Source of the DNA: Candidatus Ryanbacteria bacterium RIFCSPHIGHO2_02_FULL_48_12
GTDB taxonomy: Bacteria > Patescibacteriota > Minisyncoccia > Ryanbacterales > 2-02-FULL-48-12
Assembly (NCBI GenBank): GCA_001819875.1
Contig: MHNR01000001.1
Coordinates: 44,946-78,330, forward strand
DNA: 33,385 bases
Reading direction: 5' to 3'
The notes under the pieces are model-generated. The model saw only the letters and a program-made list of their open reading frames with translations, had not been told where the DNA came from and did not search any database. Below, one piece after another: positions 5,182 through 20,393 of this stretch; position 1 is the first letter of the stretch, and each line of letters starts with the position of its first letter. The position numbers and the translations under genes are program-made.

Positions 5182-5219
5182 ATATTACAAGAATAGCGCG
5201 AATCAGTCATTTTGTGGAC

Positions 5220-5263
5220 TTGACAATAAATAGAAATATTGCTCTTTTAAATGGTAGGAGGAG
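5220..5263 (+). promoter_or_regulatory. Possible promoter and strong ribosome-binding site for the 66-aa ORF
   Basis: A perfect -35-like TTGACA stands at 5220-5225, followed by an AT-rich stretch without a clear TATAAT; TCTTTT or TTTTAA would be the -10 at 17-19 bp. The sequence AGGAGGAGG at 5255-5263 is a textbook Shine-Dalgarno 6 nt before ATG 5270. Most other first genes in the window lack an SD, so this one is conspicuous. The RBS is convincing and the promoter is tentative. Confidence 0.45.
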
Positions 5264-5269
5264 GCCCTT

Positions 5270-5470
5270 ATGAAAAGATTCTTAAAAAATTTCTCTCTAC
5301 TAATAAGGCAAAGGCCTGTAGACGAAGAACCCGCCCTTCGTTACGAACGTATCCCCGGAACTTCATGTTCAAATCCCAAAAAAATTCTCGCCATATCGAC
5401 ATGGCCGAATGGTCAAGAAATTCGTACGGTAGTATTGCTTTTTCCGCGGAACCTCAATCCTGCGGCTTAA
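5270..5470 (+). CDS. Small protein of unknown function (66 aa)
   Basis: The start is decided by AGGAGGAGG six nucleotides upstream of ATG 5270. The product is basic at the N-terminus (MKRFLKNFSLLIRQRP), with no membrane segment, and ends in a hydrophobic strand-like stretch (EIRTVVLLFPRNL). I recognise no family. It is the only plus-strand gene between the divergent leuS and the convergent tatD. Its TAA overlaps the tatD TAA by two bases on the opposite strand (shared TTAA). The combination of -35-like box, strong SD and uninterrupted frame argues for a real gene, but without homologs it could still be chance. No terminator hairpin is evident after it. Confidence 0.5.
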   Translation: MKRFLKNFSLLIRQRPVDEEPALRYERIPGTSCSNPKKILAISTWPNGQEIRTVVLLFPRNLNPAA

Positions 5471-6303
5471 ATCTTGAAACACACTCTCGTATTCTCCACC
5501 AACTGCCGAAAGACTTGATCTTCCGGCAGGTTTTTTATTTCCGCGATTTTTTTGGCTACCTGCTCCACATAGAGCGGCTCGTTGCGCTTGCCGCGATGCG
5601 GCACCGGCGTCACATACGGCGCATCCGTCTCCACCATCACGCAGTCCAGCGGCACGTTTCGGAGCACCTCGTCATAATCCCGGGCAAACGTAATAACTCC
5701 CGTAAATGAAAGGTAAAAATCTAGGTCTAAAAATTGTTTCGCAATATCCCAGGATCCGGCAAAAAAATGAATATCGCCACCGATCTCATCAGCCTTTTCC
5801 TCTTTGAGTATTGTAATCACATCCTCATAGGCATTGCGACAATGAATCATGAGCGGTTTTTTGACTTCACGAGCGAGCGCCACCTGCTCGCGAAATGTAT
5901 CTTGCTGGGCTTTTTTGACCTCGTCTGTGTCTCTCCCACGAAAATAATCAAGTCCACACTCGCCTATCGCCACCGTCTTTGGATGCATCGCAATTTCTTT
6001 GTATGCATCGTGGTCAAATACCTCCGGACGTGTAGTATAGCTCGGAACCCCCGCTGTTTGTTCGGCCTCTGCCACATCAAAATGATCCTCAAATAAATGT
6101 ATAGGGTGAAGACCCACGGCGGCATACACGCCTTCAGGATATTTTTCGGCATACGAGACTGCGCGTCGCGAGGTATCAATCTGTGACCCTACAAGAATCA
6201 TCCAGACATCGCCTTTGAGTGTGCGGTCAATAATCTCCGGGCCGTCTTCTTTGAAAGCGTTGAAATTGACGTGCGTATGGATGTCAATTAGTTTTGGGTG
6301 CAT
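5467..6303 (-). CDS. tatD: TatD-family metal-dependent deoxyribonuclease
   Basis: A 278-residue TIM-barrel hydrolase of the TatD/YcfH family, associated with 3'-5' DNA exonuclease activity and possibly removal of D-amino acids from tRNA in some members. Metal ligands are all present: DIHTH near the N-terminus (H9, H11), AIGECGLDY (E115), MIHCRN (H154), a later histidine (about H179) and VETDAPY (D227). Two inserts (about 76-100 and 122-128) make it slightly longer than the usual 255-265. It starts 7 nt after metG, the same metG-tatD order found in many bacteria. It is the last gene of the long minus-strand run. Confidence 0.93.
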   Translation of the reverse strand: MHPKLIDIHTHVNFNAFKEDGPEIIDRTLKGDVWMILVGSQIDTSRRAVSYAEKYPEGVYAAVGLHPIHLFEDHFDVAEAEQTAGVPSYTTRPEVFDHDAYKEIAMHPKTVAIGECGLDYFRGRDTDEVKKAQQDTFREQVALAREVKKPLMIHCRNAYEDVITILKEEKADEIGGDIHFFAGSWDIAKQFLDLDFYLSFTGVITFARDYDEVLRNVPLDCVMVETDAPYVTPVPHRGKRNEPLYVEQVAKKIAEIKNLPEDQVFRQLVENTRVCFKI

Positions 6304-6310
6304 ACAGATA

Positions 6311-7882
6311 TCAGCTTATGCGCGGAAACAATCCCTCACCTTTTTTTACCTCAAACTCCGTCGCATCCTCCAAAGAGACAACTTTATCTGCACCAAATGT
6401 CGCAAGCACCTTTGCCGCAGTATCGGGCATAAAAGGGCTCAAGAGAAGCCCTAAGCGTGCACTTGCCTGCGCTAACTGCCATAAGATGGCCTGGGTCTTG
6501 GTCTTATCTACATGCACTAACTTAAATGGTTCATACTCCTGGATATAGGCGTCCATCACCGAGATGAGATGCCACAAGATTCCGAGCGCCTCGTTGAGAC
6601 GAAAGCTATCCATCGCCTGCGTGTATTGGGGCTCCACGACCTCTTGGACAAAGTAGCGAAGACTTGTGCTTTTGACGGAGAGATTTTGCTGGGCACCGTC
6701 AAATAGTGCGATGGATGCCTGAAGCGGCACCGAAAGGAGTACCTCCTCGGCAGGTTTTTGGATCCGCCCCTCAAAATACGACTCGATCATTTTTGCCGTA
6801 CGCGAGACGAGATTACCCAAACCATTGGCAAGATTGGCATTATACGCTTTTTCAAAGCGCTCTTTGGTCATATCTCCGTCCTCAAATGTAGAAATCTCGC
6901 GCAAAAAGAAATACCGCAACGCATCCGCGCCATATCTCTCTATCATTTCAAATGGATCGACAACGTTTCCCAAAGACTTAGACATTTTTTTGCCGCCGGA
7001 AATAATAAACCCGTGCACGAGAATACGCTTCGGAATTGGGAGTTTAGCAGAGAGCAACATGCCGATCCAAATAAGCGAGTGGAACCGCAAGATGTCCTTA
7101 CCAATCAGATGCATATCCGCCGGCCAATAGGTTTTGAATAGCGCTTCATCAGCACTACCATACCCAAGTGCGCTAACATAGTTGGAAAGTGCGTCACACC
7201 AAACATACATGTTTTGCGACTCATCCCCTGGTACCGGCACTCCCCACGGAATATCTTTGGCGGGGCGCGAGAAGCTCACATCCTCGAGCCCAGCATCCAA
7301 GAATGTCAGCATCTCATTTTTGCGCGCGTCCGGAATAATCTGAAGCTCGCCAGACTCGATGATCTTTTTGATGTCAGTAGTATAGCGCGAGAGTTTAAAA
7401 AAATAGTTTTCCTCTTCTACGACTTCCGGCGGTTTACCATGATCTTCGCAGATGCCATTTACTAGATCCTTGTCAGTAACAAATGCCTCATGACCCACAC
7501 AATAGAGTCCCTTGTATGAGGCCTTGGAAATATCTCCTGCCGCATGTATTTTTTGCCACAAAGCTTGTGCCCCCGGCCAATGACGCTTTTGGTCGGACGT
7601 CTGTATGAAATCGTCATTGGAGATGGACAACGCTTTCAAAAGCTCTTTGAACCGCGCCGCATTTGCATCCACAAACGCCTTGGGATCCTTGCCTGCAGTT
7701 TGGGCGGCACGAGCGATCTTGGCGCCGTGTTCATCAGCACCTGTCAAAAACCGCACATCCTCCCCTAAAATCCGGCGATAGCGCGCTATGGCATCGGCTT
7801 GCACAAACTCAAGCGCATGCCCCACATGCGGCACAGAGTTTACATACGGTATAGATGTGGTGATATAAAATTTGTCCGCCAT
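6311..7882 (-). CDS. metG: Methionyl-tRNA synthetase
   Basis: Class Ia synthetase that charges initiator and elongator tRNA-Met, 523 residues. HVGH is at about 19-22 and KMSKS at about 299-303, with the intervening TGADEHG signature and WCDALSNYVSALGYG typical of MetRS. It lacks the C-terminal tRNA-binding (Arc1p-like) domain. In the zinc-knuckle region the usual C-x-x-C is C-x-x-H (YCVGHEAF), followed by C-x-x-H (ICEDHG), so a C-H-C-H site is possible. The stop is TGA. It lies 6 nt after the AI-2E gene and 7 nt before tatD, inside the long operon. Confidence 0.96.
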   Translation of the reverse strand: MADKFYITTSIPYVNSVPHVGHALEFVQADAIARYRRILGEDVRFLTGADEHGAKIARAAQTAGKDPKAFVDANAARFKELLKALSISNDDFIQTSDQKRHWPGAQALWQKIHAAGDISKASYKGLYCVGHEAFVTDKDLVNGICEDHGKPPEVVEEENYFFKLSRYTTDIKKIIESGELQIIPDARKNEMLTFLDAGLEDVSFSRPAKDIPWGVPVPGDESQNMYVWCDALSNYVSALGYGSADEALFKTYWPADMHLIGKDILRFHSLIWIGMLLSAKLPIPKRILVHGFIISGGKKMSKSLGNVVDPFEMIERYGADALRYFFLREISTFEDGDMTKERFEKAYNANLANGLGNLVSRTAKMIESYFEGRIQKPAEEVLLSVPLQASIALFDGAQQNLSVKSTSLRYFVQEVVEPQYTQAMDSFRLNEALGILWHLISVMDAYIQEYEPFKLVHVDKTKTQAILWQLAQASARLGLLLSPFMPDTAAKVLATFGADKVVSLEDATEFEVKKGEGLFPRIS

Positions 7883-7888
7883 ATTCTA

Positions 7889-8926
7889 TCAGTCTACCTG
7901 GAAAGTTTTTTTCTTTTCTGCAACATCATTGAGAAACTCCACTAATACTACCGCCAAAGGCACCGCGAGCACAACCCCAAAAAACCCGCCGATTTTTGCC
8001 CCAATCAAGAGAGAGACGATAACCAAAAGCGGCGGCACGCCGACAGTCTTACGTACCACTACCGGATAGATGAGGTGATTCTCGAGTTGTTGGACCATCA
8101 CGTACAAAAATACCACCCAGAGACCCAAGACCGGACTTTGCACTACCGAGATCGCAATCCCGGGGATAGCTGCCATTATCGGACCAAAATAAGGAATAAT
8201 CTCAAACGTAGCTGAGACAACACCGAGCACGAGCGCGTATTTCACTCCCAAAAGTGTGAGGCCGAGATACACAAGCACCCCCACCAAAACCCCCAGCAAA
8301 ATCTGCCCTTGGAACCACCGTCCAATCTTGTACTGGGATCGGCCCCAAAGATCTATGAGATATGATTCGTGCCGATAAGGAGTAACAATTCGGAGAAAAT
8401 CCCCCACGCCGTCCTCTTGCACGGACAAATAAAATGCAATAATAACCGCAAATACGATAGCCATAGGCCCGTCAAACAAAAACGACCCGAGGGAGAAAAA
8501 CTCAAGTAGCTTCTCACTCACCAGAACATCAAGTCGCGACGCGAGCGTGGAAATAGATGGAGAAAATGCATCAAATGGCAAAAAGGTAAACGTCTCTTTG
8601 AGCTGTAACAAGGTACTCTCAAGATATAGAGGGAATCCGGAAACAAAATCCTGTAATTGATTGATGGTAGGAGGAATCACGAGATAAAACAAAAAACCCA
8701 AAAGCGCGATGGTTGCAAGATAAATAGCAAGGACAGCAATCACTCGCGGGAGCCCTCGCTTACAAAACCACTTTATCCCCGGCTCTATCGCAGAGGCGAT
8801 AACTACCGCTATCAAAAGAATAGCTACTACATCGCGCACATAATACAAAAACACTACTCCCAGAAGCAACAGAATAGTACGCAATATTGTACCGGTAGAA
8901 ATAATAATGGTTTGATCTTTGGGCAT
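7889..8926 (-). CDS. AI-2E transporter family (PerM/UPF0118) membrane protein
   Basis: A 345-residue polytopic membrane protein with about eight hydrophobic segments: two near the N-terminus (about 11-45), a pair at about 60-85, a soluble loop at about 90-150, then a dense C-terminal membrane half. Family features are the GLTLLGVKYALVLGVVSATFEIIPYFGP segment, read here in two parts around about 225-252, and the following KIGGFFGVVLAVPLAVVL. Family members are proposed exporters or Na+/H+ antiporters, and the substrate here is unknown. It sits between the M16 peptidase gene (5 nt gap) and metG (6 nt gap). It ends in TGA. Confidence 0.88.
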   Translation of the reverse strand: MPKDQTIIISTGTILRTILLLLGVVFLYYVRDVVAILLIAVVIASAIEPGIKWFCKRGLPRVIAVLAIYLATIALLGFLFYLVIPPTINQLQDFVSGFPLYLESTLLQLKETFTFLPFDAFSPSISTLASRLDVLVSEKLLEFFSLGSFLFDGPMAIVFAVIIAFYLSVQEDGVGDFLRIVTPYRHESYLIDLWGRSQYKIGRWFQGQILLGVLVGVLVYLGLTLLGVKYALVLGVVSATFEIIPYFGPIMAAIPGIAISVVQSPVLGLWVVFLYVMVQQLENHLIYPVVVRKTVGVPPLLVIVSLLIGAKIGGFFGVVLAVPLAVVLVEFLNDVAEKKKTFQVD

Positions 8927-8931
8927 ACAAT

Positions 8932-10200
8932 CTATAATTTGAGTAACACTCGAAATGGCTGCGGGTCTTTGTGTGGCCCAATAATCGCAACATTCAGCTT
9001 CTCCGGCCGAAACATAAAATTCGCAGCGCGCTGGAGGTCTTTGGTAGTCACAGCCTGAATACGCTCCATAACCGCTTCAGGCGTCATTAGTGCTTTTTTG
9101 AACAACTCCTGCGTCCCAAAAAATGACGCTACCTCATCGGAGGATTCAAGACCAATAGCCAAATGCCCCCGATAAAAATCCTTGGCACGGGAAAGCTCAC
9201 GTTCGGAGACACCCTCACGGCGAATCTTTGCAAATGCCTCCACTACGCGCCGTACCACTTCTTTTAGTTTATCATGCGGTGTGCCAACGTACACACTCAA
9301 ATACCCCGAGTCGGTGTAGTGCTCTGCGTCCGCCATCAGCGCATAAGCCAGACCTCGCTTCTCCCGAATCTCACGGAATAGCCGCGAGCTCGTCTTGCCG
9401 CCTAAAATAGTCGCCAAGAGTGCGGCCGCGTAACGATCTTCGTCAAACATAGTATATCCGCGCACTCCAATAACTACGTGGCTCTGATCGGTATCTTTGT
9501 ATTCAATGGATACCTTCGGACTTTTTTGTGCCTCCTTTACTTTGAGTTTCGGCTTGGGACTACCTTTTTTGATTTTGGAGAATATCTGGTGAATACGCTT
9601 GCCCGCCATATCCTCTGCAAAATTACCCGCAACGATCACCACGGCGTTGGAGCCAACATATTGCGACTCACGGTATTTGGCAAACTCTGCACGCTTCAAG
9701 CTTGAGATAACCTCTTTGGTGCCAATCGTCTCCCAGCCAGCTGGCTGGTCGCCGTACAGAAGCGACTCAAACACCTCATGCACGCGGCGCATCGGACTAT
9801 CCATATACATACTCATCTCCTGTAAAATCACGCCGCGCTCTTTTTCAATTTCTTTGGCATCAAACAACGGGTCAAGAAGGATATCCGAGACAATATCAAG
9901 CGCAAGATCAAACCGCCGTGAGTCTACCTTGACCCAATAGCCGGTAAGCTCTTTGGAGGTAAATGCATTGTGCTCCGCCCCCACGTCATCCAGCTCCTGG
10001 TGTACCTGCCCGGGACGCGGACGACGCTTCGTACCTTTAAAAAAGAGGTGCTCCAAAAAATGCGAGATACCGCTCGTTGATCTAGTCTCATACTTTGAAC
10101 CCGTGCCGAAAAGCACGAGAAGTGTCAGACTCTTGGTATCATGCATGGGGACCGTAATCACGCGCATGCCGTTGGGAAGGGTCGTTTTTGAGTATTGCAT
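8932..10200 (-). CDS. M16 family zinc peptidase (processing-peptidase-like)
   Basis: A 422-residue inverzincin of the pitrilysin/mitochondrial-processing-peptidase-beta type. The inverted zinc motif HFLEH (about 47-51) is followed by the downstream glutamate in ERGVILQEMS (about 128). The GLAYALMADAEHYTDSGYL block of the inactive C-terminal half is also present. With both halves in about 420 residues it matches small bacterial homodimeric M16B enzymes. The frame is open from ATG 10236, but MQYSKTTLPNGMRV at 10200 matches the usual family start, so that ATG was chosen; no SD supports either. The terminator at 10236-10260 lies just upstream of this start, so a separate promoter or readthrough is needed. 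Confidence 0.9.
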   Translation of the reverse strand: MQYSKTTLPNGMRVITVPMHDTKSLTLLVLFGTGSKYETRSTSGISHFLEHLFFKGTKRRPRPGQVHQELDDVGAEHNAFTSKELTGYWVKVDSRRFDLALDIVSDILLDPLFDAKEIEKERGVILQEMSMYMDSPMRRVHEVFESLLYGDQPAGWETIGTKEVISSLKRAEFAKYRESQYVGSNAVVIVAGNFAEDMAGKRIHQIFSKIKKGSPKPKLKVKEAQKSPKVSIEYKDTDQSHVVIGVRGYTMFDEDRYAAALLATILGGKTSSRLFREIREKRGLAYALMADAEHYTDSGYLSVYVGTPHDKLKEVVRRVVEAFAKIRREGVSERELSRAKDFYRGHLAIGLESSDEVASFFGTQELFKKALMTPEAVMERIQAVTTKDLQRAANFMFRPEKLNVAIIGPHKDPQPFRVLLKL

Positions 10201-10235
10201 ATTGGGATGGTAGCACATGCATCCGGAAAAGTTCA

Positions 10236-10260
10236 AACAAAAAAGGAGGCGATGTCTCCT
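10236..10260 (-). terminator. Intrinsic terminator after the small membrane protein gene
   Basis: On the minus strand AAGGAG and CTCCTT form a 6-bp stem with a 7-nt loop, followed directly by a run of T (TTTTTTG). It begins about 10 nt after the TAA of the 78-aa gene. The stem is short, so termination may be partial, and M16 starts only about 40 nt further on. Confidence 0.55.
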
Positions 10261-10269
10261 TCCAAAATT

Positions 10270-10506
10270 TTATTTCTTTTGCCTGCCGCTCCTTGGCAGA
10301 TAGAGATACCCCAGACCCGCCACCCCTACCGCGAGTACCAGACAGAAAATGCCTAGTAAGCTTACGAGCCAATCCATATGGCCGAGTCTGCCCGCGTAAG
10401 AAAACACCTGCCAGGATTGCGAGAGGAGTACGAGGATACAGAAACCCAACAACAGCCACCCACGCAGACTTAGACGATTTGGCGGCATTGAAGGAAGATG
10501 AAACAC
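10270..10506 (-). CDS. Small two-helix membrane protein of unknown function
   Basis: A 78-residue protein with two hydrophobic segments, GWLLLGFCILVLLSQSW (about 16-32) and WLVSLLGIFCLVLAVGVAGL (about 46-65). The ends are basic and the C-terminus is SGRQKK. I recognise no family. The start is GTG 10506, decided by AGGGGGG (10512-10518) five nucleotides upstream. An ATG two bases upstream is out of frame and ends after 12 codons. It lies 31 nt after glyS on the same strand and is followed by a terminator hairpin, so it seems to close the ileS-recO-glyS part of the run. Confidence 0.7.
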   Translation of the reverse strand: MFHLPSMPPNRLSLRGWLLLGFCILVLLSQSWQVFSYAGRLGHMDWLVSLLGIFCLVLAVGVAGLGYLYLPRSGRQKK

Positions 10507-10537
10507 ATATACCCCCCTAAAAAAGATACTACTAGGG

Positions 10538-11818
10538 CTAGACTAACCTCTCACTAATGAAGGGGTCAAGATCTGCAACAGACACGCGCACCTGCTCTCC
10601 TGTGTCGCGATCACGCACGGTTACCGTACTATCTTCGAGCGATTGAAAATCTACCGTGATACACCACGGGGTGCCGATCTCATCCTGCGCATAATAACGC
10701 TTACCGACATTACCCCGATCATCCCAAGCCACGGGAAACTTTTTGCGGAGCGTATCATATATCTCGCGAGCCTTGGCCACGAGATCAGGTTTATTGGCAA
10801 GAAGCGGGAACACTGCGACCTTATAAGGTGCAAGCTTTGGCGGGAGCTTGAGGTACACACGCTTTTTTTCTGTATCCTCTTGGTAAGCTTCCAGAAGCGT
10901 CACCAACACCGAGCGATCCACTCCCCAGGTCGGCTCTATAACGTGCGGCCAAAACTCCTCACCCGACTCCGGATCGCGATAAGGCGCCCCATCGGGAAAA
11001 TGATTTTTTAGGTCAAAATTGGTACGATACGCGAGACCGTATAACTCTTTTTGACCAAATGGGTACTCATACTCAAAATCCACCGTGCGCTTGGAATAAT
11101 GCGCGCGATCCCCATCCGGAATCTCGGCCTCGTGTATGCGCGCATCACCCACCCCCAACTCCTTGAGCCACGAGCGCATCTCGCCGAGCCAGTGATCAAA
11201 ATACTTTTGCCAATCTTCTTCGCGCACAAAATACTCAATCTCCATCTGCTCGAACTCGCGCATACGAAAGATAAAATTGCCTGGTGTGATTTCATTGCGA
11301 AATGCCTTGCCGATTTGCGCGATACCAAAAGGCAAGCGTTTGCGCATGGAATCGGCGACATTTTTAAAATCTACAAACATGGCCTGCGCGGTTTCTGGAC
11401 GGAAATAGACTTCATTGGCTTTTTCCTCGGCAGGACCGAGATATGTCTTGAGCATTAGGTTGAATTGTTTGGGCTGAGTGAACTCCCCCCCACAATTGGG
11501 GCATTTATTTTCTGTGAGCTGATCCGCACGAAACCGGCTATGACACTCTTTACACTCCACCAATGGATCGGAAAATTCCTTGAGATGCCCACTCGCCTCC
11601 CAAACTTTCGGGTTCATAATGAGTGCCGCATCAATGCCCACCATATCATCGCGCTCGTGCACAAAACGCCTCCACCAAAGCTGTTTGATATTATTTTTGA
11701 GCTCCACACCCAAAGGTCCGTAGTCCCAGGAGTTTGCGAGCCCGCCATAAATTTCCGAGCCGGGGAAGATAAAGCCGCGACGCTTACAAAGACTTATTAT
11801 TGTGTTTATATCGGTCAT
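10538..11818 (-). CDS. glyS: Glycyl-tRNA synthetase, dimeric (alpha2) type
   Basis: Class II synthetase, 426 residues, of the single-chain GlyQS type also found in archaea, eukaryotes and some bacteria, not the alpha2beta2 type. It has the N-terminal [20 protein letters not shown] and a zinc ribbon CKEC...CPNC (about 93-115). The class II motif 2 region FRNEITPGNFIFRMREFEQM and motif 3 with GVDRSVLVTLLEAY are present, then a C-terminal anticodon-binding domain. ATG 11818 (MTDINTIISL) lies 12 nt after the stop of a mini-ORF that repeats the same 5' coding region. No SD precedes it. See the pseudogene entry just upstream. Confidence 0.96.
   Translation of the reverse strand: MTDINTIISLCKRRGFIFPGSEIYGGLANSWDYGPLGVELKNNIKQLWWRRFVHERDDMVGIDAALIMNPKVWEASGHLKEFSDPLVECKECHSRFRADQLTENKCPNCGGEFTQPKQFNLMLKTYLGPAEEKANEVYFRPETAQAMFVDFKNVADSMRKRLPFGIAQIGKAFRNEITPGNFIFRMREFEQMEIEYFVREEDWQKYFDHWLGEMRSWLKELGVGDARIHEAEIPDGDRAHYSKRTVDFEYEYPFGQKELYGLAYRTNFDLKNHFPDGAPYRDPESGEEFWPHVIEPTWGVDRSVLVTLLEAYQEDTEKKRVYLKLPPKLAPYKVAVFPLLANKPDLVAKAREIYDTLRKKFPVAWDDRGNVGKRYYAQDEIGTPWCITVDFQSLEDSTVTVRDRDTGEQVRVSVADLDPFISERLV
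11736..11794 (-). repeat. 59-bp direct repeat, copy inside glyS
   Basis: This segment encodes [19 protein letters not shown] near the GlyRS N-terminus. It is identical base for base to 11847-11905, at an offset of 111 bp in the same orientation. Both edges of the identity are sharp. Confidence 0.95.
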
Positions 11819-11830
11819 GGAATTAATAAC

Positions 11831-11935
11831 TTAGAAATTTAGGTGGGCGAGCCCGCCATAAATTTCCGAGCCGGGGAAGATAAAGCCGCGACGCTTACAA
11901 AGACTCATAATTTTTTCCATAGATACTTCATGCAT
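11831..11935 (-). pseudogene. Duplicated 5' end of glyS (34-codon mini-ORF)
   Basis: An in-frame ORF from ATG 11935 to TAA 11831 reads [10 protein letters not shown], then the same [20 protein letters not shown] as true GlyRS, then HLNF and stop. The middle 59 bp are identical to glyS, while the first ten codons differ but look like an equally good GlyRS N-terminus ([12 protein letters not shown]). It begins 4 nt after the stop of the upstream 635-aa gene and ends 12 nt before the real glyS ATG, so it occupies the place of the glyS start. Possible origins are an allele-exchange scar, a tandem micro-duplication, or a misassembly joining two strain variants. A leader-ORF role is conceivable but unproven. 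Confidence 0.75.
11847..11905 (-). repeat. 59-bp direct repeat, upstream copy
   Basis: Perfect copy of 11736-11794 in the same orientation, lying inside the mini-ORF upstream of glyS. The lack of any substitution implies a recent event or an assembly join. Confidence 0.95.
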
Positions 11936-11939
11936 AGGA

Positions 11940-13847
11940 TTAGGGGGCTACGCTGTATTGATTGGGGAGGACCCGAAGATCAGTATGAACTGCTGTAGTA
12001 ATCTTACTTGCCAAACCTTGCAAACTCTGGCCGGTAAATGTGTCACGCCCGTTGACTACTATCTTACCCGTCAGATCGGGAGAGGTCCCCACGAGATTGG
12101 GGCCTGGTATGATGCCCACTTGAAATGAGACCTCTCGCGCCGGACGGACTCTCCCAGTTCCGGCCTCCAGCAAGCCAACATCCCATGCAATCTCACCCGT
12201 GTTGGCATTGTATCGGATCGCCGCGTCAGGAGGGTTTACTGTCTCTTTCCATTTTACGTATGAAGGAAGACCTGTAGTGACTACGACATTTTCCACGTCA
12301 TTGGAAAGATTACTCAAGGAGAGCGTGATCATGTAGGTAGTCTCCTCGCCGACCTGCGGCGGCAACGGTCCAGAGTTGGGCAACAAGCTCGTATAGTAAT
12401 ACCCCCGAGCCGCAATACCCAATCGGGTGGTCGTCTTGAATGTTACCGAACTTTTACCTGAAATATCAATACCCTCGTATCCTTGCGGAATGACGTTGGT
12501 GGCAATTCGCCCCGAGACTGAAGCAGTGAAATTGCGATCATTGGCGTCCGCTATTGGTAAATCGCTCAAGAGTTTTACCGTAAATGAAACTGTGCCCGAC
12601 TTGCCCGGCTCCACAAACTTGAGCGCCGGGCTGGAAAACCCGTTCCAGACAACCTTGCGTGTTGCGCCATCCATCACCCCCTGCTGTACTTTCACTGATC
12701 CATAATCAAATATCCTGCCCGCAAGCTCCGCCTCAATCGTCACATCGGTCACGGTAACTTTGAGATTATTTTTCCAAGCAAATGTCACGCTCACACTCTC
12801 TCCGGGAGCCGCCACATGATCCTTGGAATTGTTTACAAACGCATCAATAGAAAGTAGTGGCGCGCGCAGAAGCACTATCTTTTGGGCGTCACCGTAAATG
12901 GTCCAGGTATTCACCTCGCTATTGAATATGCCGATTTTGGCATCAATATTTTTATGATCATTCGCCGTGCCATTGAGTACGCCTCTTACGGTAATCGTAC
13001 CCGACTGCCCGGGCGAGAGATCTCCTAGATTCCAAGTGTTGTTGTTTTTTTGTGGTGCCGGATCCGAAGCTACGAATTCAAACCCCTCCGGATATTCAAG
13101 ATTGAGCGAGATATTTTTAAATACCGTCTCTGCGGTAGAAACATACCGCGCCTCAAGCACCACCTCCTGGCCGACATTAATCTCGTCGGGGAACTCAATA
13201 GATACCCCAATCGGCGAACGATCCACAAGAGTTGAGAGATCCGCATCATTGCCAAAACGTGCACTGGAGTTGGACGGACGATACTCGAGAGAGGCCTTAG
13301 CAGTAAGTTTGGTCCCCTCCTTGCCCAAAAGATACGCCTCAAAACGCTCCGTGCGCTCTTCACCGATATTGAGACGGCCGATATCACGACGATCTCGGAA
13401 TTTGCCTTTCGGCGGACTGCCAAAAATTGGCAACGCCCCCTCCGGATAGTCAAAAGTAAGCTCTACAGATTCGAGCACCGTTTGATTATTATTTTTAAAT
13501 CGCACCTCATAAGCGATACGATCGCCCGCCGTGATGCGTTCTGGTGCGATAATCTCCAAATCCACGTTTTTGGTGTTCACCCGCCCTACATTTTGCAAAA
13601 AATAAAACGCCGCACCCGCACCAGCGAGTACCAATACCAGAGTAATCGAGATACCCCAAATAAACGCGCGGCGGCGGCGTTGTCGTTTGCGTAGCCAAAA
13701 CGCCTGGATCTCATCCTGCGGTGCATCCGCCCAGGTATGTGGGCTCTTTTGGACTTCAGCAGGATCAAGTCTGGGATCTCCCACACGCTCCTCAAAATGC
13801 TCTTCTTGGCGAAATAGTCTATTTTTCAGTTCATCTACTCTGCCCAT
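11940..13847 (-). CDS. Membrane-anchored extracellular repeat protein (DUF11/CARDB-like Ig folds)
   Basis: A 635-residue protein with a charged cytoplasmic N-terminus (1-60, ending in RKRQRRRR). One transmembrane helix at about 61-86 ([10 protein letters not shown]...FYFLQNV) is followed by about 550 residues of beta-rich extracellular repeats. At least four modules share phrases of the type '[28 protein letters not shown]', given here only as the recurring core V-x-Y/F-K-N-N-x-x-x-V and LEYPEGFEF. This is the wording of DUF11/CARDB-type domains on surface proteins. There is no sortase motif and no C-terminal anchor. It starts 12 nt after recO and is co-directional with ileS and glyS. The likely role is a cell-surface or adhesion component (inference). 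Confidence 0.7.
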
Positions 13848-13859
13848 ACGTATCGTCTA

Positions 13860-14498
13860 TTATACCGCCCATTGCCTACTTGCGAAATCCTCCGGTGTGC
13901 GCATTTCCTTTAATGCATAAAAATAGATGCGCTCAAAAAAATCGCGTACCTCTTTTTTACGCAACTCCTCAAGCGATACTGCAGGGACAATATCTGCCGA
14001 TCGCAACAGCGCACGCACCACTGCCGGCTGTCCTTCGGGCATATACCCAAGGTGTGCAAGCGCCTTTGCTTGAAAGGTATACAAAGTCGGCAGGACATCT
14101 GACGAGCAAAACACTCCTGAACCGACACGTACGAGTGCCGCGCTCAATAGTGTCCAAAGGTCCGGATCTCGCTCTTCTCCCACGGCAACTCCAGAGATAA
14201 AACGCGTGACCGCCGAGAAAGCGTCAAACCGTGGCCCCTCCTCCCCGATCAACGGATAGACGTCCAGCGCATACGCATCAGTGAGACGGTACGATTCTTT
14301 GCCCACGACAAAAGAAATCCGCGCGTGCATAAAAATATCCAGACTGCTACGCAATTTGGATTTTTCAAGACGCACTCCTTTGGCGACCACTGCAATACTG
14401 CCAAAATCTTTAGTATAGAAGCGGATAATCTTATCAGCCTCACCGACTGGACGGGAGGAGAGGACTATCGCCTCGGTCTCATGTATATGGTAAGACAT
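13860..14498 (-). CDS. recO: DNA repair protein RecO
   Basis: A 212-residue RecO, the RecF-pathway mediator that loads RecA onto SSB-coated DNA. The N-terminal OB fold is clear: TEAIVLSSRPVGEADKIIRFYTKDFG, read as TEAIVL...GEADKI...FYTKDFG, then VAKGVR. The helical C-terminal domain carries LYTFQAKALAHLGYMPE. It is shorter than the roughly 240-residue model proteins. It contains a single cysteine, so the four-cysteine zinc site of many RecOs is absent. Its ATG shares one base with the ileS stop (TAATG), implying translational coupling. The next gene starts 12 nt downstream. Confidence 0.92.
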   Translation of the reverse strand: MSYHIHETEAIVLSSRPVGEADKIIRFYTKDFGSIAVVAKGVRLEKSKLRSSLDIFMHARISFVVGKESYRLTDAYALDVYPLIGEEGPRFDAFSAVTRFISGVAVGEERDPDLWTLLSAALVRVGSGVFCSSDVLPTLYTFQAKALAHLGYMPEGQPAVVRALLRSADIVPAVSLEELRKKEVRDFFERIYFYALKEMRTPEDFASRQWAV

Positions 14499-17400
14499 TA
14501 GGATCCGAGTGAGATAGAAACATCCTCCTCACCAAGAGAAATCGTATACTCCCCTTGTCCAGCCAATACCACATCCACATCGCTCGCGCCCACCGCTCTT
14601 TTTATCTCCTCATTGGATTTTTTAAAGAATGGCGCAAGTGTTTCTGAAGAAATATAAATTTTCAGAATCGGTATTTTTTGCTGTGGCACAAACCCGCTCT
14701 TTTTGCGTGCATCCTGCACCCCACGCACAAATTCGCGGAACATGCCTTTTTCCTTGAGTTCTGACGTGATAGTCACATCCAACTCTGCATATTTGCCCTC
14801 CGCAAAGTCGCTTTTTTCTTTCAGATCCTCGATATTAGTGCGTTTTTTTACAATATCACGATACTCTTCGCCTCTCGGAATTATATCTACATGTATATAT
14901 GAAAGAGAAAGTGGCTGACGCACACTGATGCCCAGAGAGCTTCGCTCCGCCAATATCGCCTCCACCGATTTACTAACCCTTGCCATATCTTCACTTACCA
15001 CATTCCAGCCGTCTATCTCACGCGCAAACTCCGGCCACTGCTCCAGATGCACCGACTCTTTGTCTGACTCTTGGCGCACACCCTGATACAAACGCTCTGC
15101 CAAAAACGGCGCAAATGGCGCAATAATTTTTGCGGTCTCGAAAATCGCATAGCGGAGCGTGCTAAGCGCCTCGACTCTTCCCTCCTCTCCTTCTTTGAAT
15201 CTATCACGCGAGTATTGAAGATACACCGTAGAAAACATATCTACAAAATCATTAATAGCACGCACCCCGCGGTCCAGCCGGCAGGCGTCCATAGCACGCG
15301 ATACATTTTGCGAAAGTTGCGAAAGCTCATAGACCAAAAACTTGTCGAGCACATGTGCGGCATGCGAAAGCACAAACGCCGGTACCGCCTCACCGCGATA
15401 CATTGCATAAAACGTAGCGACGTTGGAAAGACGTTGAATAATTTTTTTAAGTATCTCGTCTACCCCGCGCTCGGAAAAATTAAGATCGTCCGCGGCTACC
15501 GCCGGCGAGTTGAGGAGATAGAGACGCAGAGCATCTGCTCCATATTTTGATACCACCTCCATGGGATCGGGATAGTTTTTCAGACGCTTGGACATTTTTT
15601 GTCCGTTCTCGGCAAGGATCAGACCGTTGACCAAGATATGCGTAGAAGCAGGTTTTTGAAACAAGGCACCCGCAAGTACATGCAGGGAATAAAACCAGCC
15701 TCGTGTCTGATCAAGTCCTTCAGCGATAAAATCCGCCGGAAACCCGCGGCCGCTTTGAGGATCAAAATGCGCAAGCGGCTCACCCATATAATGTACCTGT
15801 CCGTAGGGCATAGAGCCTGACTCAAACCAACAATCAAATACCTCGGGGATGCGTTGCATCTCTCCGCCGCACGAGCACTGCAAAGACACCACATCACTAT
15901 ACGGCCGGTGAAAATCCACCTCGCCATCGTTGTTGAATGGATAGTTTGGGAACACCATCTCGCGCATCTCGCCTTGCTGTATATATGAAGTGGGACGCGA
16001 TGCGAGCATGGCCTCGGGAGCAGTAAAGGTAAGCGCCCCTTCGAGCATCCACAAAGGATCGCCATGACTCACAATTAGCACCCGCTCGCCCTCATGACGA
16101 GCGGCAACCTCACGAGCAACCTGCATCATGCGCGCTCGGGCTTGTGCGAGCGACTCCCCGCCATCAGGCACTTTGGTAAATCGTTCCAGCGGCGTTGCAA
16201 AATACGCATAGTATTCAGAAACTTTCTTACCCTCAAAGAGTGGTCCATGATTGAGCTCATTGAGCCGGCTATCATAGGAGATCGGCACACCAAGCACTTT
16301 ACTAAAAATATCCGCCGTCTCTTTGGCACGGATATACTCGGAAGAGTAGATGGCATCCACACCACCACTTGCCTTGAGAGTTTGTGCGCGCTCCTCAATA
16401 GTTTTTTTGCCGTTTTCTGTGACGTGCACATTGGCGTCCTTATGTGTATTTAAGGTTATCTCTCCATGACGCGCGGGGTTGTTCATAATATCAGCCGGCA
16501 TATCATCGCGCTCGCCGTGGCGCGCCAGTATCAAGGTCGTTGGCTTCGTGTATCGCTTTGCCTCCAGATCCTTGAGAGATCCTGCAACTTCTATGGTTTT
16601 GCAATCCGGACATTTCCAGACCGGGATTGGCGCCCCCCAAAACCGAGAGCGCGATATCGCCCAGTCGGGCGCGGTCTCAAGACCATGACCAAATCTCCCC
16701 TCTTTGATGTGTTCGGGTACCCAGGTAATTTGTTTGTTGTAGGTATGCAGGTCATCGCGGATTTGTGCGACATTTACAAACCAAGAAGAGGCCGCATAGT
16801 TAAGAAGCGGCGTATCGCACCGCCAGCAGTGCGGATAGGAGTGCGCGAGCGGCATCTCGGAAAAATATGCATCATGACTTTTAAGATACGCCAAAATCTC
16901 CTCATCAATTTTTCTCTGCAGTGCCGTGTCTTTGGGTTTTACCGCGCGGCCCGCAAAATCTTTAACTTCAGGCACAAATTTGCCGTCTCTCGTGACATGC
17001 TGGACAAACGGCAGGGTAAACTTTTTGCCAAGTTGCATGTCGTCATCGCCAAATGCCGGCGCGATGTGTACCACGCCCGTCCCCTCCTCTGTCTTTACAA
17101 AATCCGCGGCGTAGATCTGCCAGCCATTCTCACGGTTTTTGATATTGGGATCATTTACAAAGTAGTCGAATACTGGTTTATACTTTTTGCCAACAAGGTC
17201 GGAGCCTTTTATAGTCTTAAGTCTTTTAAAGCTAACGTTACCCTCAGCCTCAAAATGTAAATTAAACCCGCCATCATATTTAGCGAATGTCCCACCGAAA
17301 GTTCTGATCAGTACCTCATCATTATCCGCAAAAACAAATATATTCCCCTCTTTAAATCTACCCAAGTTAGATGCACCAACCTTAAAGAATCCATACTCAA

Positions 17401-18157
17401 TACCCCCCCCCACCGCAAGCGCAACATTTCCCGGCAAGGTCCATGGGGTCGTCGTCCAAGCGAGTATATATGTATGCTCATCTGTCACAAAATCCCCGAT
17501 TTTTTGTCCGGGCTCGAGCTGAAACTTCACCGTCACTGATGTATCCGTGATATCTTTGTATCCAAGTGAGACCTCGAAGTTTGCAAGTGTGGTCTCGCAC
17601 CGAGGGCAAAGATGCATGGACTTGTATCCCTCACTAATCAATCCCTTGTCGTAGAGATTTTTAAATATCCACCAGACCGTCTCGGTATACGTGGGATCCA
17701 TGGTCTTGTAATCATGCTCCATGTCCACCCATCGGCCGATACGCGGGATGATTTGTTTCCAATCATCGGCATAACGAAGCACCTCGGTTTTGGCAACCTC
17801 GTTAAACTTGTCTATCCCATACTCGACGATTTCTTTTTTGCTCTTGAGTCCCAGCTTTTGCTCCACTACATTTTCCAAAGGGAGACCGTGACAATCCCAA
17901 CCCCATTTGCGCTCTACATATCTCCCGCGCATCGTCTGATAGCGGGGTACGGCATCCTTGATGATAGAGGCAAGCAAGTGCCCATAGTGCGGCAAACCCG
18001 TTGCAAACGGCGGCCCGTCGTAGAATACAAACGGATCCCTGCCTCTTGTGGCCTCGAGCGATTTTTCAAAAATCTGGCGCTCACGCCAAAAAGCGAGCGT
18101 CTCCTCTTCGCGCTCGGCTATAGTTTTTTGTTTAGCGGGCTGTTCTTTTTGAGCCAT
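14498..18157 (-). CDS. ileS: Isoleucyl-tRNA synthetase with inserted histidine-phosphatase domain
   Basis: Class Ia synthetase for tRNA-Ile, 1219 residues, about 180-200 longer than normal. It has HYGH (57-60), zinc site 1 (CPRC and later CWRC), a CP1 editing domain with WTTTPWTLPGN, and KMSKR (854-858), then the anticodon-binding domain. Zinc site 2 uses C516/C519 (KCPDC) and C761/C763 (CSCGG). Between these pairs lies a complete histidine-phosphatase (phosphoglycerate-mutase-like) domain at about 540-735. It carries RHGE (R546, H547), SSEYIRAKETA, LNELNHG and VSHGD (H698), so all catalytic residues are present. ATG 18157 was chosen because a promoter -10 at 18169-18174 puts the mRNA start downstream of the alternative GTG 18166. 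The stop overlaps the recO start by one base. Confidence 0.97.
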   Translation of the reverse strand: MAQKEQPAKQKTIAEREEETLAFWRERQIFEKSLEATRGRDPFVFYDGPPFATGLPHYGHLLASIIKDAVPRYQTMRGRYVERKWGWDCHGLPLENVVEQKLGLKSKKEIVEYGIDKFNEVAKTEVLRYADDWKQIIPRIGRWVDMEHDYKTMDPTYTETVWWIFKNLYDKGLISEGYKSMHLCPRCETTLANFEVSLGYKDITDTSVTVKFQLEPGQKIGDFVTDEHTYILAWTTTPWTLPGNVALAVGGGIEYGFFKVGASNLGRFKEGNIFVFADNDEVLIRTFGGTFAKYDGGFNLHFEAEGNVSFKRLKTIKGSDLVGKKYKPVFDYFVNDPNIKNRENGWQIYAADFVKTEEGTGVVHIAPAFGDDDMQLGKKFTLPFVQHVTRDGKFVPEVKDFAGRAVKPKDTALQRKIDEEILAYLKSHDAYFSEMPLAHSYPHCWRCDTPLLNYAASSWFVNVAQIRDDLHTYNKQITWVPEHIKEGRFGHGLETAPDWAISRSRFWGAPIPVWKCPDCKTIEVAGSLKDLEAKRYTKPTTLILARHGERDDMPADIMNNPARHGEITLNTHKDANVHVTENGKKTIEERAQTLKASGGVDAIYSSEYIRAKETADIFSKVLGVPISYDSRLNELNHGPLFEGKKVSEYYAYFATPLERFTKVPDGGESLAQARARMMQVAREVAARHEGERVLIVSHGDPLWMLEGALTFTAPEAMLASRPTSYIQQGEMREMVFPNYPFNNDGEVDFHRPYSDVVSLQCSCGGEMQRIPEVFDCWFESGSMPYGQVHYMGEPLAHFDPQSGRGFPADFIAEGLDQTRGWFYSLHVLAGALFQKPASTHILVNGLILAENGQKMSKRLKNYPDPMEVVSKYGADALRLYLLNSPAVAADDLNFSERGVDEILKKIIQRLSNVATFYAMYRGEAVPAFVLSHAAHVLDKFLVYELSQLSQNVSRAMDACRLDRGVRAINDFVDMFSTVYLQYSRDRFKEGEEGRVEALSTLRYAIFETAKIIAPFAPFLAERLYQGVRQESDKESVHLEQWPEFAREIDGWNVVSEDMARVSKSVEAILAERSSLGISVRQPLSLSYIHVDIIPRGEEYRDIVKKRTNIEDLKEKSDFAEGKYAELDVTITSELKEKGMFREFVRGVQDARKKSGFVPQQKIPILKIYISSETLAPFFKKSNEEIKRAVGASDVDVVLAGQGEYTISLGEEDVSISLGS
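15940..16545 (-). other. Histidine-phosphatase (PGM/SixA-like) domain within ileS
   Basis: Within the IleRS reading frame this stretch has the full histidine phosphatase superfamily set. The phosphoacceptor His is in ARHGE at 16511-16525. Next come the substrate-binding Arg in SEYIRAKETADIF, the acidic residue in RLNELNHG, and the second His in VSHGDPLW at about 16058-16075. Normal IleRS sequence resumes with DFHRPYSD. The domain is in frame and undamaged, so it is likely functional. Its substrate is unknown. Confidence 0.9.
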
Positions 18158-18168
18158 ACGATGCACCT

Positions 18169-18197
18169 ATCATAATGAAAAACTGCCTTAAATTCAA
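18169..18197 (-). promoter_or_regulatory. Promoter for ileS operon
   Basis: TTGAAT (18197-18192) and TATGAT (18174-18169) on the minus strand are separated by exactly 17 bp. The expected transcription start is near 18162, about five nucleotides before ATG 18157, so the mRNA would be nearly leaderless. This lies just downstream of the terminator that ends the HTH gene, as expected for a new transcription unit. Confidence 0.7.
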
Positions 18198-18230
18198 ATC
18201 GTAAATAGAAGACGGCCATCAATTTGAAAA

Positions 18231-18262
18231 AATAAAAAGGTCGTCTTACCGCGACCTCTTTT
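18231..18262 (-). terminator. Intrinsic terminator after the HTH gene (bidirectional shape)
   Basis: AGGTCG (18238-18243) pairs with CGACCT (18252-18257). The stem is flanked by an A-rich run on the left and TCTTTTT on the right, so it can act on both strands. On the minus strand it follows the HTH gene stop by about 8 nt and ends in TTTTTATTTTTTC. Confidence 0.8.
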
Positions 18263-18269
18263 TACCGTC

Positions 18270-18611
18270 TCAAGGCGCCTTGCCTCCATATCTCCTCTCC
18301 CACATCATGAAAAACTTTCTCACTATAGCATGCGGCAGATTATCTACGAGTTCGAGAAGCTGACGTGCATTTTTAATTGAAGATGAAGAAGATACTGCTT
18401 GAGACGCACGGACATCAACAACATCTATGCCGACTTTAAAGACTGTGGCAACACGCTTCTTGAGCCCCACCGAAATCGTGTCCTTCTTTCTGCGACGATA
18501 ACGAGATACGAGCGACTCGCTAATGCCTAACTTCTCGGCAATACTCACCACCGTCTCACCTCGGCCTATGGCATGCTCAATGAGCTCATCAACATATATC
18601 TTCTTTTTCAC
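18270..18611 (-). CDS. Small helix-turn-helix protein of unknown function
   Basis: A 113-residue basic protein. A helix-turn-helix is clear at about 19-44: ETVVSIAEKLGISESLVSRY, followed by RRRKKD. After a serine run (SSSSS) the C-terminal part has LLELVDNLPHAIVRKFF and a basic tail. The frame is open to 18662, but GTG 18611 is the start because AGGAGGTG stands 4 nt upstream and the extra residues lie across the promoter. It has its own promoter and a terminator, and ends in TGA, so it is a single-gene unit between argS and ileS. A DNA-binding regulator is the simplest reading; its targets are unknown. Confidence 0.7.
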   Translation of the reverse strand: MKKKIYVDELIEHAIGRGETVVSIAEKLGISESLVSRYRRRKKDTISVGLKKRVATVFKVGIDVVDVRASQAVSSSSSIKNARQLLELVDNLPHAIVRKFFMMWERRYGGKAP

Positions 18612-18633
18612 AGAACACCTCCTATCCGGGCAA

Positions 18634-18662
18634 AGTCTAGCACACGAGAGGGCATATTTCAA
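18634..18662 (-). promoter_or_regulatory. Promoter and SD of the HTH gene
   Basis: TTGAAA (18662-18657) and TAGACT (18639-18634) on the minus strand are 17 bp apart and overlap the argS stop region. The predicted start near 18627 gives a short leader containing AGGAGGTG (18622-18615) just before GTG 18611. Confidence 0.65.
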
Positions 18663-20393
18663 TTACATTCGCTCCGGTGCCCTAATGCCCAAAAGGTCAA
18701 GACCATTTTTGAGTACTATGGATACGGCTCTCGTGAGCGCTACACGATACGGCGCCTCATCTCCAGAATCTACTATCCGCTCGTGCGCATAAAAAGCATT
18801 GAACTCTTGGGCAAGCACATACAGATACGTAGCAATATAATGCGGATCCCGCGCCTCCCCTGCCGCCCGCACCGCGTCCGAAAAACGCATGAGTATTCGC
18901 TCAAGATTCTTGGTCGTATCTGATGGCGCTTCCAAAGTATCTTTAATACCCGCCTCTCCGGCTTTTCGCAAAATTGAACAAGCGCGCGCATGCGTGTACT
19001 GGAGATACGGTCCCGAGTCCCCCTCAAACGAAAGCGAGGTCTCAAAATCAAAAATAATATCTTTGCCCACAGATTGCCGGATGATGGAATACTTCACTGC
19101 ACCGACCGCAATCATATCCAAAAGATCTTCGCGCTCTGCCTCCGGAATATCCGACTCTGCCATTTTTCCTCCGAGTGCCGCACGCACATCCTCCAAAAGT
19201 TTTTCCGCGGTTACCACATCTCCCGTACGCGAAGACATCTTGCCGGATTTCAGACGCAAAACCCCATGCGGTACATGGATGATTTTCTCCGCAAGATCGG
19301 GCCGCAGCTCCCCCAGGGCTTTGAGCACCACCTTAAAATAATCGGCGACCTCGTTGGCGGTCACCACAAGCGCCATATCGTATGGGCACTTCTCATATTT
19401 AGTCACGGCAAGACCAAGCTCTTTTGCTTCGTACGTAGGGAGACCATCGGAGTTGATAAATACACGCGTATGCAATCCAGGATATTTTTCTCCACGAAAT
19501 ACCACCGCGCCATCTGATCGCTCAAAAATATTTTTCTCAATCCCCGTCTCCACAAGTTGTTTGCCAAGTGAAGCAACCTCCGACTCAAAAAAATAATGGT
19601 CAAACTTGGTGCCCAAACGTTTGTATATGGTCTCAAAATACTCAAGACTCCACGCCCTTCCCTCATCATACAAAGCCGTAATATCAGCATCGGATCGTGC
19701 AAATATTTTTTTGTTGATCTCTTGTATCTCTTTTTTGACCGCCTCGTCATCCTCATACATTCCTGCGCCATAGGCATAGGCTTTACCGAGAAACATGGCT
19801 TTTTCGGACACACCTTGCGTCCGGACTTGGACAAGCTCTCCCGCGTCACGCGCAACCAACATACCCCAAACAGCTTTTGCCACATGCAGTCCCACATCTC
19901 CCTGGTAGTTAATGCGCCTGGTATCTGCACCGGAAAACTCAACGATACGCGAGAGCGACTCACCAATGCAGTTGGTCATCAAGTGGCCAATATGAAATGC
20001 TTTGAATGGATTGGGGTCAGTATACTCCACCACCACACGCTTCCCCTTGAGAGCATCATTTGCTCCGTATCTATCACCATGCTCCAGGACTTCAGCCACG
20101 CCATTCGCAAGTACCGAACGCGACAAATAAAAATTAATAAACCCCGGGCCGGCGATCTCCACCCGCTCGATCTTCTCACCCTTTGCAGACTGTATCTTTT
20201 GGGCCAAAGCCTCGGCGATTTCTCGCGGATTCTTACCAAGCGCCCGCGCATGCACCATGGCGGCATTGGTGGCGAAATCCCCATGGCTAAAATCTTCCGG
20301 GTACTCCACCGAAAAATCCAAAAGACTCACTTCGGGGTAGAGCTCCTGTAATCCGCCCCTCACTAATTTTTGAATATAATCATGCATCAGCAT
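18663..20393 (-). CDS. argS: Arginyl-tRNA synthetase
   Basis: Class Ia synthetase for tRNA-Arg, 576 residues. The N-terminal Add-1 domain (1-110) is followed by VEYTDPNPFKAFHIGHLM with HIGH at 134-137. The catalytic loop is KMSSR (385-389), the usual degenerate form in ArgRS. The C-terminal DALR anticodon-binding domain ends in LDLLGIRAPERM. ATG 20393 is preferred over the internal ATG two codons later because a -10-like TAGAGT ends exactly 6 nt upstream, implying a leaderless mRNA. No SD is present. The HTH gene follows 51 nt downstream with its own promoter. Confidence 0.97.
   Translation of the reverse strand: MLMHDYIQKLVRGGLQELYPEVSLLDFSVEYPEDFSHGDFATNAAMVHARALGKNPREIAEALAQKIQSAKGEKIERVEIAGPGFINFYLSRSVLANGVAEVLEHGDRYGANDALKGKRVVVEYTDPNPFKAFHIGHLMTNCIGESLSRIVEFSGADTRRINYQGDVGLHVAKAVWGMLVARDAGELVQVRTQGVSEKAMFLGKAYAYGAGMYEDDEAVKKEIQEINKKIFARSDADITALYDEGRAWSLEYFETIYKRLGTKFDHYFFESEVASLGKQLVETGIEKNIFERSDGAVVFRGEKYPGLHTRVFINSDGLPTYEAKELGLAVTKYEKCPYDMALVVTANEVADYFKVVLKALGELRPDLAEKIIHVPHGVLRLKSGKMSSRTGDVVTAEKLLEDVRAALGGKMAESDIPEAEREDLLDMIAVGAVKYSIIRQSVGKDIIFDFETSLSFEGDSGPYLQYTHARACSILRKAGEAGIKDTLEAPSDTTKNLERILMRFSDAVRAAGEARDPHYIATYLYVLAQEFNAFYAHERIVDSGDEAPYRVALTRAVSIVLKNGLDLLGIRAPERM

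Follow-up and report, generated by a model that had tools for sequence, protein, structure and literature searches.

A histidine phosphatase domain in the zinc knuckle of isoleucyl-tRNA synthetase of Patescibacteria

The ileS locus and its inserted domain

The window analyzed here is a stretch of 33,385 nucleotides from the ultra-small Candidatus Ryanbacteria bacterium RIFCSPHIGHO2_02_FULL_48_12 (contig MHNR01000001.1). It contains five synthetase genes within 18 kb (2692-20393; leuS encoding 829 aa, metG, a proS-like gene, ileS and argS), and a phosphatase is present only in ileS. The local gene order is argS - small HTH gene - ileS - recO. The ileS frame (14498-18166, minus strand) encodes 1222 aa if read from a GTG, or 1219 aa from an ATG three codons later at 18157. 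Residues are numbered here in the 1222-aa frame; those of an earlier sequence-only reading were counted from the ATG and are therefore lower by 3. The features of the locus are as follows.

18663..20393, minus strand: argS, conserved upstream neighbor (Pfam; near ileS in 48 loci)
14498..18166, minus strand: ileS, isoleucine--tRNA ligase of the IleRS2/eukaryote-like type with an internal phosphatase
17978..17989, minus strand: HIGH-type synthetase motif HYGH, residues 60-63
16601..16612, minus strand: zinc-knuckle pair 1, C519-C522 (CPDC); C519 nearly invariant in A6
15917..16555, minus strand: histidine phosphatase insert with its linkers, residues ~538-750 (PF00300; boundaries taken from uninserted relatives)
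16517..16522, minus strand: R549-H550 of RHG, predicted phosphohistidine site; invariant in A6
16460-16471 of the window: second RHGE string, residue 566, non-catalytic, 17 residues past the catalytic one
16328..16330, minus strand: R613, predicted catalytic
16256..16258, minus strand: E637, acid
16064..16066, minus strand: H701, predicted catalytic
15869..15877, minus strand: zinc-knuckle pair 2, C764-C766 (CSC); nearly invariant in A6
15587..15598, minus strand: synthetase KMSK, residues 857-860
13860..14498, minus strand: recO, conserved downstream neighbor (PF11967; in 36 loci)

The host protein has the HIGH and KMSK motifs, zinc pairs and CP1 editing domain (GTGVVHIAPAFG, including D376) of an isoleucine--tRNA ligase, and exceeds the cut-off of the ileS equivalog model TIGR00392 (796.6 vs 621.4 bits). 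It is closer to Thermus IleRS (1ile) and Priestia IleRS2 (600 bits) than to IleRS1 (270 bits). An AlphaFold2 model of residues 1-1049, built with 80 relatives, has a pLDDT of 92.7 and a pTM of 0.89, and the whole IleRS model matches solved IleRSs (TMt 0.82 against 1ile).

The sequence-only reading claimed that a catalytically complete histidine phosphatase lies between the zinc-knuckle cysteine pairs of this enzyme, and both parts of the claim hold, with the insert located between C519/C522 and C764/C766. The domain passes the gathering cut-off of PF00300 (His_Phos_1) by a wide margin (105.3 vs 21.7 bits, E=4.3e-30), and in alignment with 1ile the synthetase match ends at residue 542 and restarts at 751, a gap of 208 residues where Thermus has ~5. 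The motifs RHGE (549-552), RAKETA (613-618), LNELNHG (635-641) and VSHGD (699-703) supply the full branch-1 residue set, namely the RHG, second Arg, acid and second His (R549, H550, R613, E637 and H701). The Pfam alignment was misleading at one point, taking the second RHGE (566) rather than the first; we assign catalysis to the first (549/550) because both the alignment of relatives and a predicted strand at 544-549 point there. The predicted fold also agrees with a histidine phosphatase: the domain modeled in isolation is confident (pLDDT 94.1, pTM 0.91) and Foldseek places it in the alpha/beta phosphoglycerate-mutase fold with matches to 6s2q, 4ij5 and 1h2e. The window protein did not reach the NCBIfam equivalog cut-off of any named phosphatase subfamily (CobC, SixA, PspA, GpmB), scoring 65.3 of 162.9 for TIGR03162, 34.8 of 74.5 for SixA and 47.5 of 350 for PspA, and a subfamily name was consequently dropped.

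Conservation and distribution of the insert

Across 124 IleRS inserts, R549, H550 and H701 are present in 124/124, an acid at 637 in 124/124 (111 E and 13 D) and R613 in 123/124; the H701 count is biased in loci from the GTDB-wide scan, which selected for SHGDPLW, and the sets from genome searches were not so selected. Identity averages ~36% in the insert vs 47% in the core of the synthetase. Conservation reaches 97% or more in just 8 of the 187 insert columns, and R549, H550, R613 and H701 rank with the best-conserved positions. Apart from the single R613S substitution, no dead phosphatase copies were seen in IleRS. To judge from these alignments, the pattern is that of selection for catalysis. 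A purely structural role, in which the domain would stabilize or space the zinc knuckle or bind tRNA with no use as an enzyme, might be expected from its location in a catalytic-body loop and its high-confidence packing in the model (pTM 0.89). However, the catalytic residues outrank nearly every other insert column in conservation, and a free-gene version of the phosphatase, described below, also keeps R, H, R and H in 17/17 cases, and we regard this explanation as highly improbable.

The suggestion that related insertions exist in other CPR genomes proved to be far too modest. Each of the ten genomes of the order has one PF00300 match, always in a frame 1100-1222 aa long, and all ten frames, when read, align to the window IleRS. 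In the class, IleRS model searches indicate an IleRS interrupted at the knuckle in ~72 of 112 genomes and an uninterrupted one in 31, with 9 unscorable, these counts being approximate as they were sorted by hand from search rows. A His_Phos match is present in all 72 genomes with an interrupted IleRS, and IleRS-sized frames carrying His_Phos also occur outside the class. A GTDB-wide scan with an insert peptide returned 124 relatives, of which the best 80 were used as named loci; these come from Patescibacteria-type MAGs and one MAG labeled WOR-3, which may be mis-binned since its locus groups inside the others. The phosphatase in IleRS is thus apparently a conserved partnership rather than an accident.

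This recurrence also settles whether the insertion is an assembly join. The genomes are MAGs in which single contigs can be misjoined, but dozens of independent genomes, produced by many projects and in some cases complete on a single contig, show the same junctions. Chance and assembly or binning error are excluded by the presence of the insert across order, class and phylum, leaving an artefact with negligible probability.

The class-wide sample also bears on what the domain might do. The sequence-only reading proposed action on a nucleotide by-product, and the version examined was that the tethered domain clears the PPi of aminoacylation, standing in for a missing inorganic pyrophosphatase (PPase). 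The window genome is suggestive in this respect: it is estimated to be 100% complete in 32 contigs, none of PF00719, PF02833 and PF03030 matches it, and a PPase of family I, family II or the membrane type was found neither in it nor in 12 other genomes of the 112 in the class; at least one of the three Pfam models matches in 14/14 control genomes. Over the 103 scored class genomes, however, the insert shows no association with PPase absence, PPases being present in 63/72 genomes with the insert vs 27/31 without it (odds ratio 1.04, p=1.0), and two genomes of the same family (G002 and G003) have insert and PPase together. Membrane PPase alone is commoner in genomes with the insert (50/72 vs 11/31, Fisher p=0.002, with lineage effects uncorrected), the opposite of replacement. 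Histidine phosphatases, moreover, normally cleave phosphomonoesters. PPase replacement is therefore very unlikely, and we rejected this form of the by-product proposal.

Fused, adjacent and absent forms

Among the best 80 of the 124 relatives, the phosphatase is fused to IleRS in 64, and 15 of the remaining 16 loci have a free phosphatase gene encoding ~200 aa directly upstream of an uninserted ileS, usually overlapping it. The order argS - phosphatase - ileS is seen in two loci (L082 and L085). The adjacent free genes fall among the IleRS inserts in a tree of the phosphatases (several supports are weak), which points to their excision from the fused form. Two uninserted IleRSs (L217 and L213) retain sequence resembling the C-terminal linker of the insert (HNWPVNEKMELDLHRPYVD, LPRDEKGETNLHRPYVD), apparent scars of in-frame deletion. 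Loss may also be complete, with no His_Phos match anywhere in 15 of the 31 class genomes without the insert. The tree of the IleRS core requires many state changes, with starred branches forcing 18 for the inserted state. In the window family, the phosphatase is closer than the synthetase core to distant IleRS types, suggesting that inserts were probably transferred between IleRS types. In one genome (G047) an HD_4 alarmone-hydrolase-like gene (L239:3042-3548) separates the free phosphatase from ileS; it did not recur among neighbors, and a link to an alarmone hydrolase was rejected.

The knuckle of IleRS is not the only recipient of such domains. In several families of Patescibacterial ValRS, a histidine phosphatase sits at the homologous zinc knuckle or next to it (L021, L022, L024, L025, L027, L029, L036, L111, L117, L118, L119 and L235). 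One IleRS family has a tandem pair of phosphatases at the knuckle (L100, L101, L103 and L104) and another IleRS (L102, 2167-6882) has three at three sites. In L106 (2638-6990) a GNAT domain lies between DCWFESG and FIAEG and a phosphatase precedes the anticodon-binding domain, both being non-knuckle sites. L240:1193-4780, L241:1297-5580 and L044 carry a NUDIX insert within the CP1 editing domain or close to it, L241 having a histidine phosphatase in addition, and a YdeN-like serine hydrolase (1uxo, E=5e-13) is found in the editing-domain region of two IleRSs that also have the knuckle phosphatase (L069:1351-5574 and L243:640-4698). These other inserts are rare, with three NUDIX, two hydrolase and one GNAT cases among 183 distinct IleRS frames; phosphatases dominate in this set, which is enriched for them. 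Elsewhere in the Patescibacteria, the fusion partners of His_Phos are a short pyruvate kinase, a DedA-like VTT membrane domain and an MFS transporter (L230, L231 and L234).

These arrangements could have arisen by hitch-hiking, that is, by capture of an active generalist phosphatase gene beside ileS into a tolerant surface loop, with ordinary metabolites as substrates and co-expression as the only meaning of the fusion. The relatives with a free gene directly upstream of ileS fit such a history, as do the tolerance of the knuckle for 200-aa insertions, the joining of His_Phos to VTT, MFS and pyruvate kinase partners in the phylum, and the action of the nearest solved relatives (PhoE and PspA) on small metabolites. 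Aminoacyl-tRNA synthetases (aaRSs) are also known to be preferred hosts of domain insertions (PMC13114784). Capture does not readily account for repeated insertion at the same knuckle in both IleRS and ValRS, for single IleRSs with tandem and multisite phosphatases, for the finding that, when the best PF00300 loci of the class are taken without selection, all 14 of their frames longer than 600 aa are IleRS or ValRS, or for the survival of the catalytic residues in every IleRS copy bar the one R613S. We consider hitch-hiking doubtful on balance, but it remains a serious rival.

Proposed role and relation to known systems

A partnership with IleRS under selection is favored by the conservation of the catalytic residues, by the fused or adjacent position of the phosphatase and by its repeated gain. 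Conversely, the frequent loss and free-gene form argue for an accessory activity, which tethering would help without being required. We propose an active phosphatase functionally coupled to IleRS, with an accessory house-cleaning or protective role near tRNA charging, a proposal that we hold to be evenly poised. Loss and free-gene forms mean that tethering is dispensable, which weighs against coupling, and some fusions could be opportunistic.

The catalytic set of histidine phosphatases implies the usual two-step phosphohistidine reaction. The insert would accordingly be a PhoE/PspA-like phosphohistidine-forming phosphomonoesterase carried on the zinc-knuckle loop of IleRS. We predict that the phosphoenzyme forms on H550, held by R549 and R613 together with E637 and H701, and that phosphate is released from a small phosphorylated molecule. 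The likeliest substrates would be by-products or inhibitors of the nucleotide or adenylate type, or else a phosphate remaining on a tRNA end, in either case acted upon close to the site of Ile-tRNA synthesis. This would be a guard or house-cleaning activity and not a step of aminoacylation, able to work in cis when fused or in trans from the next gene, to disappear entirely and to be regained repeatedly. Given the NUDIX, hydrolase and GNAT inserts and the parallel to microcin C immunity set out below, house-cleaning or protection is in our view the most coherent reading. The idea of a phosphorylated antibiotic-like adenylate as target, also from the sequence-only reading, would fit both the accessory pattern in which the domain is gained and lost and the presence of inserted NUDIX, GNAT and serine-hydrolase domains in sister IleRSs.

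A broader and more speculative extension, which we think somewhat unlikely, is that Patescibacterial IleRS (and ValRS) serves as a chassis that repeatedly takes in small house-cleaning enzymes, with histidine phosphatases foremost and NUDIX, YdeN-like serine hydrolase and GNAT domains in addition. Jointly these would form a guard system, active where tRNAs are charged, for the destruction of poisons or faulty by-products that are phosphorylated or adenylylated; its fused, tandem and free-gene versions would interchange.

The insertion is conserved in catalytic detail over most of a class of bacteria with tiny genomes, and organisms stripped of most biosynthesis still keep a phosphatase attached to, or beside, an essential enzyme. 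Should the coupling prove real, identification of the substrate would expose an unrecognized hazard or regulator of translation, and the fused, adjacent and absent forms provide ready comparisons for testing it.

Among known systems, type 2 IleRSs (1ile, Priestia IleRS2 and yeast IleRS) share the synthetase motifs, editing domain and zinc pairs of the window IleRS, which differs in its ~213 extra residues; none of the solved IleRSs found has a phosphatase in the knuckle. The branch-1 enzymes PhoE (1h2e/1ebb) and PspA (4ij5, a metal-independent phosphoserine phosphatase) resemble the insert in fold (Foldseek E ~1e-12, TM 0.66-0.70), have the same catalytic set and are its top profile matches in the PDB, but they are free metabolic enzymes with ~28% identity to the insert, which lies within IleRS. 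Microcin C immunity offers an analogy only, in that the small enzymes MccE (GNAT), MccF (peptidase) and MccH (HIT hydrolase) act against toxic aminoacyl adenylates, neutralizing aminoacyl-nucleotide inhibitors of aaRSs (PMC7157772). These enzymes are separate from the synthetase, belong to other families with no histidine phosphatase among them, and protect against inhibition of AspRS (PMC7157772).

Synthetases with extra domains are known, and the NCBIfam family NF040702, an IleRS with an N-acetyltransferase domain, means that an IleRS with an added enzymatic domain, like that of the window, is already a known kind. NF040702 carries GNAT whereas the window IleRS carries a phosphatase; Pfam searches found no GNAT domain in the window protein, which scores 295.6 bits against a cut-off of 1999 and falls outside that family. 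Searches of open-access full texts turned up no description of an IleRS or ValRS with a histidine phosphatase. Compared with these systems, what appears to be new is a phosphatase in the zinc knuckle of IleRS, class-wide in its distribution and common to ValRS.
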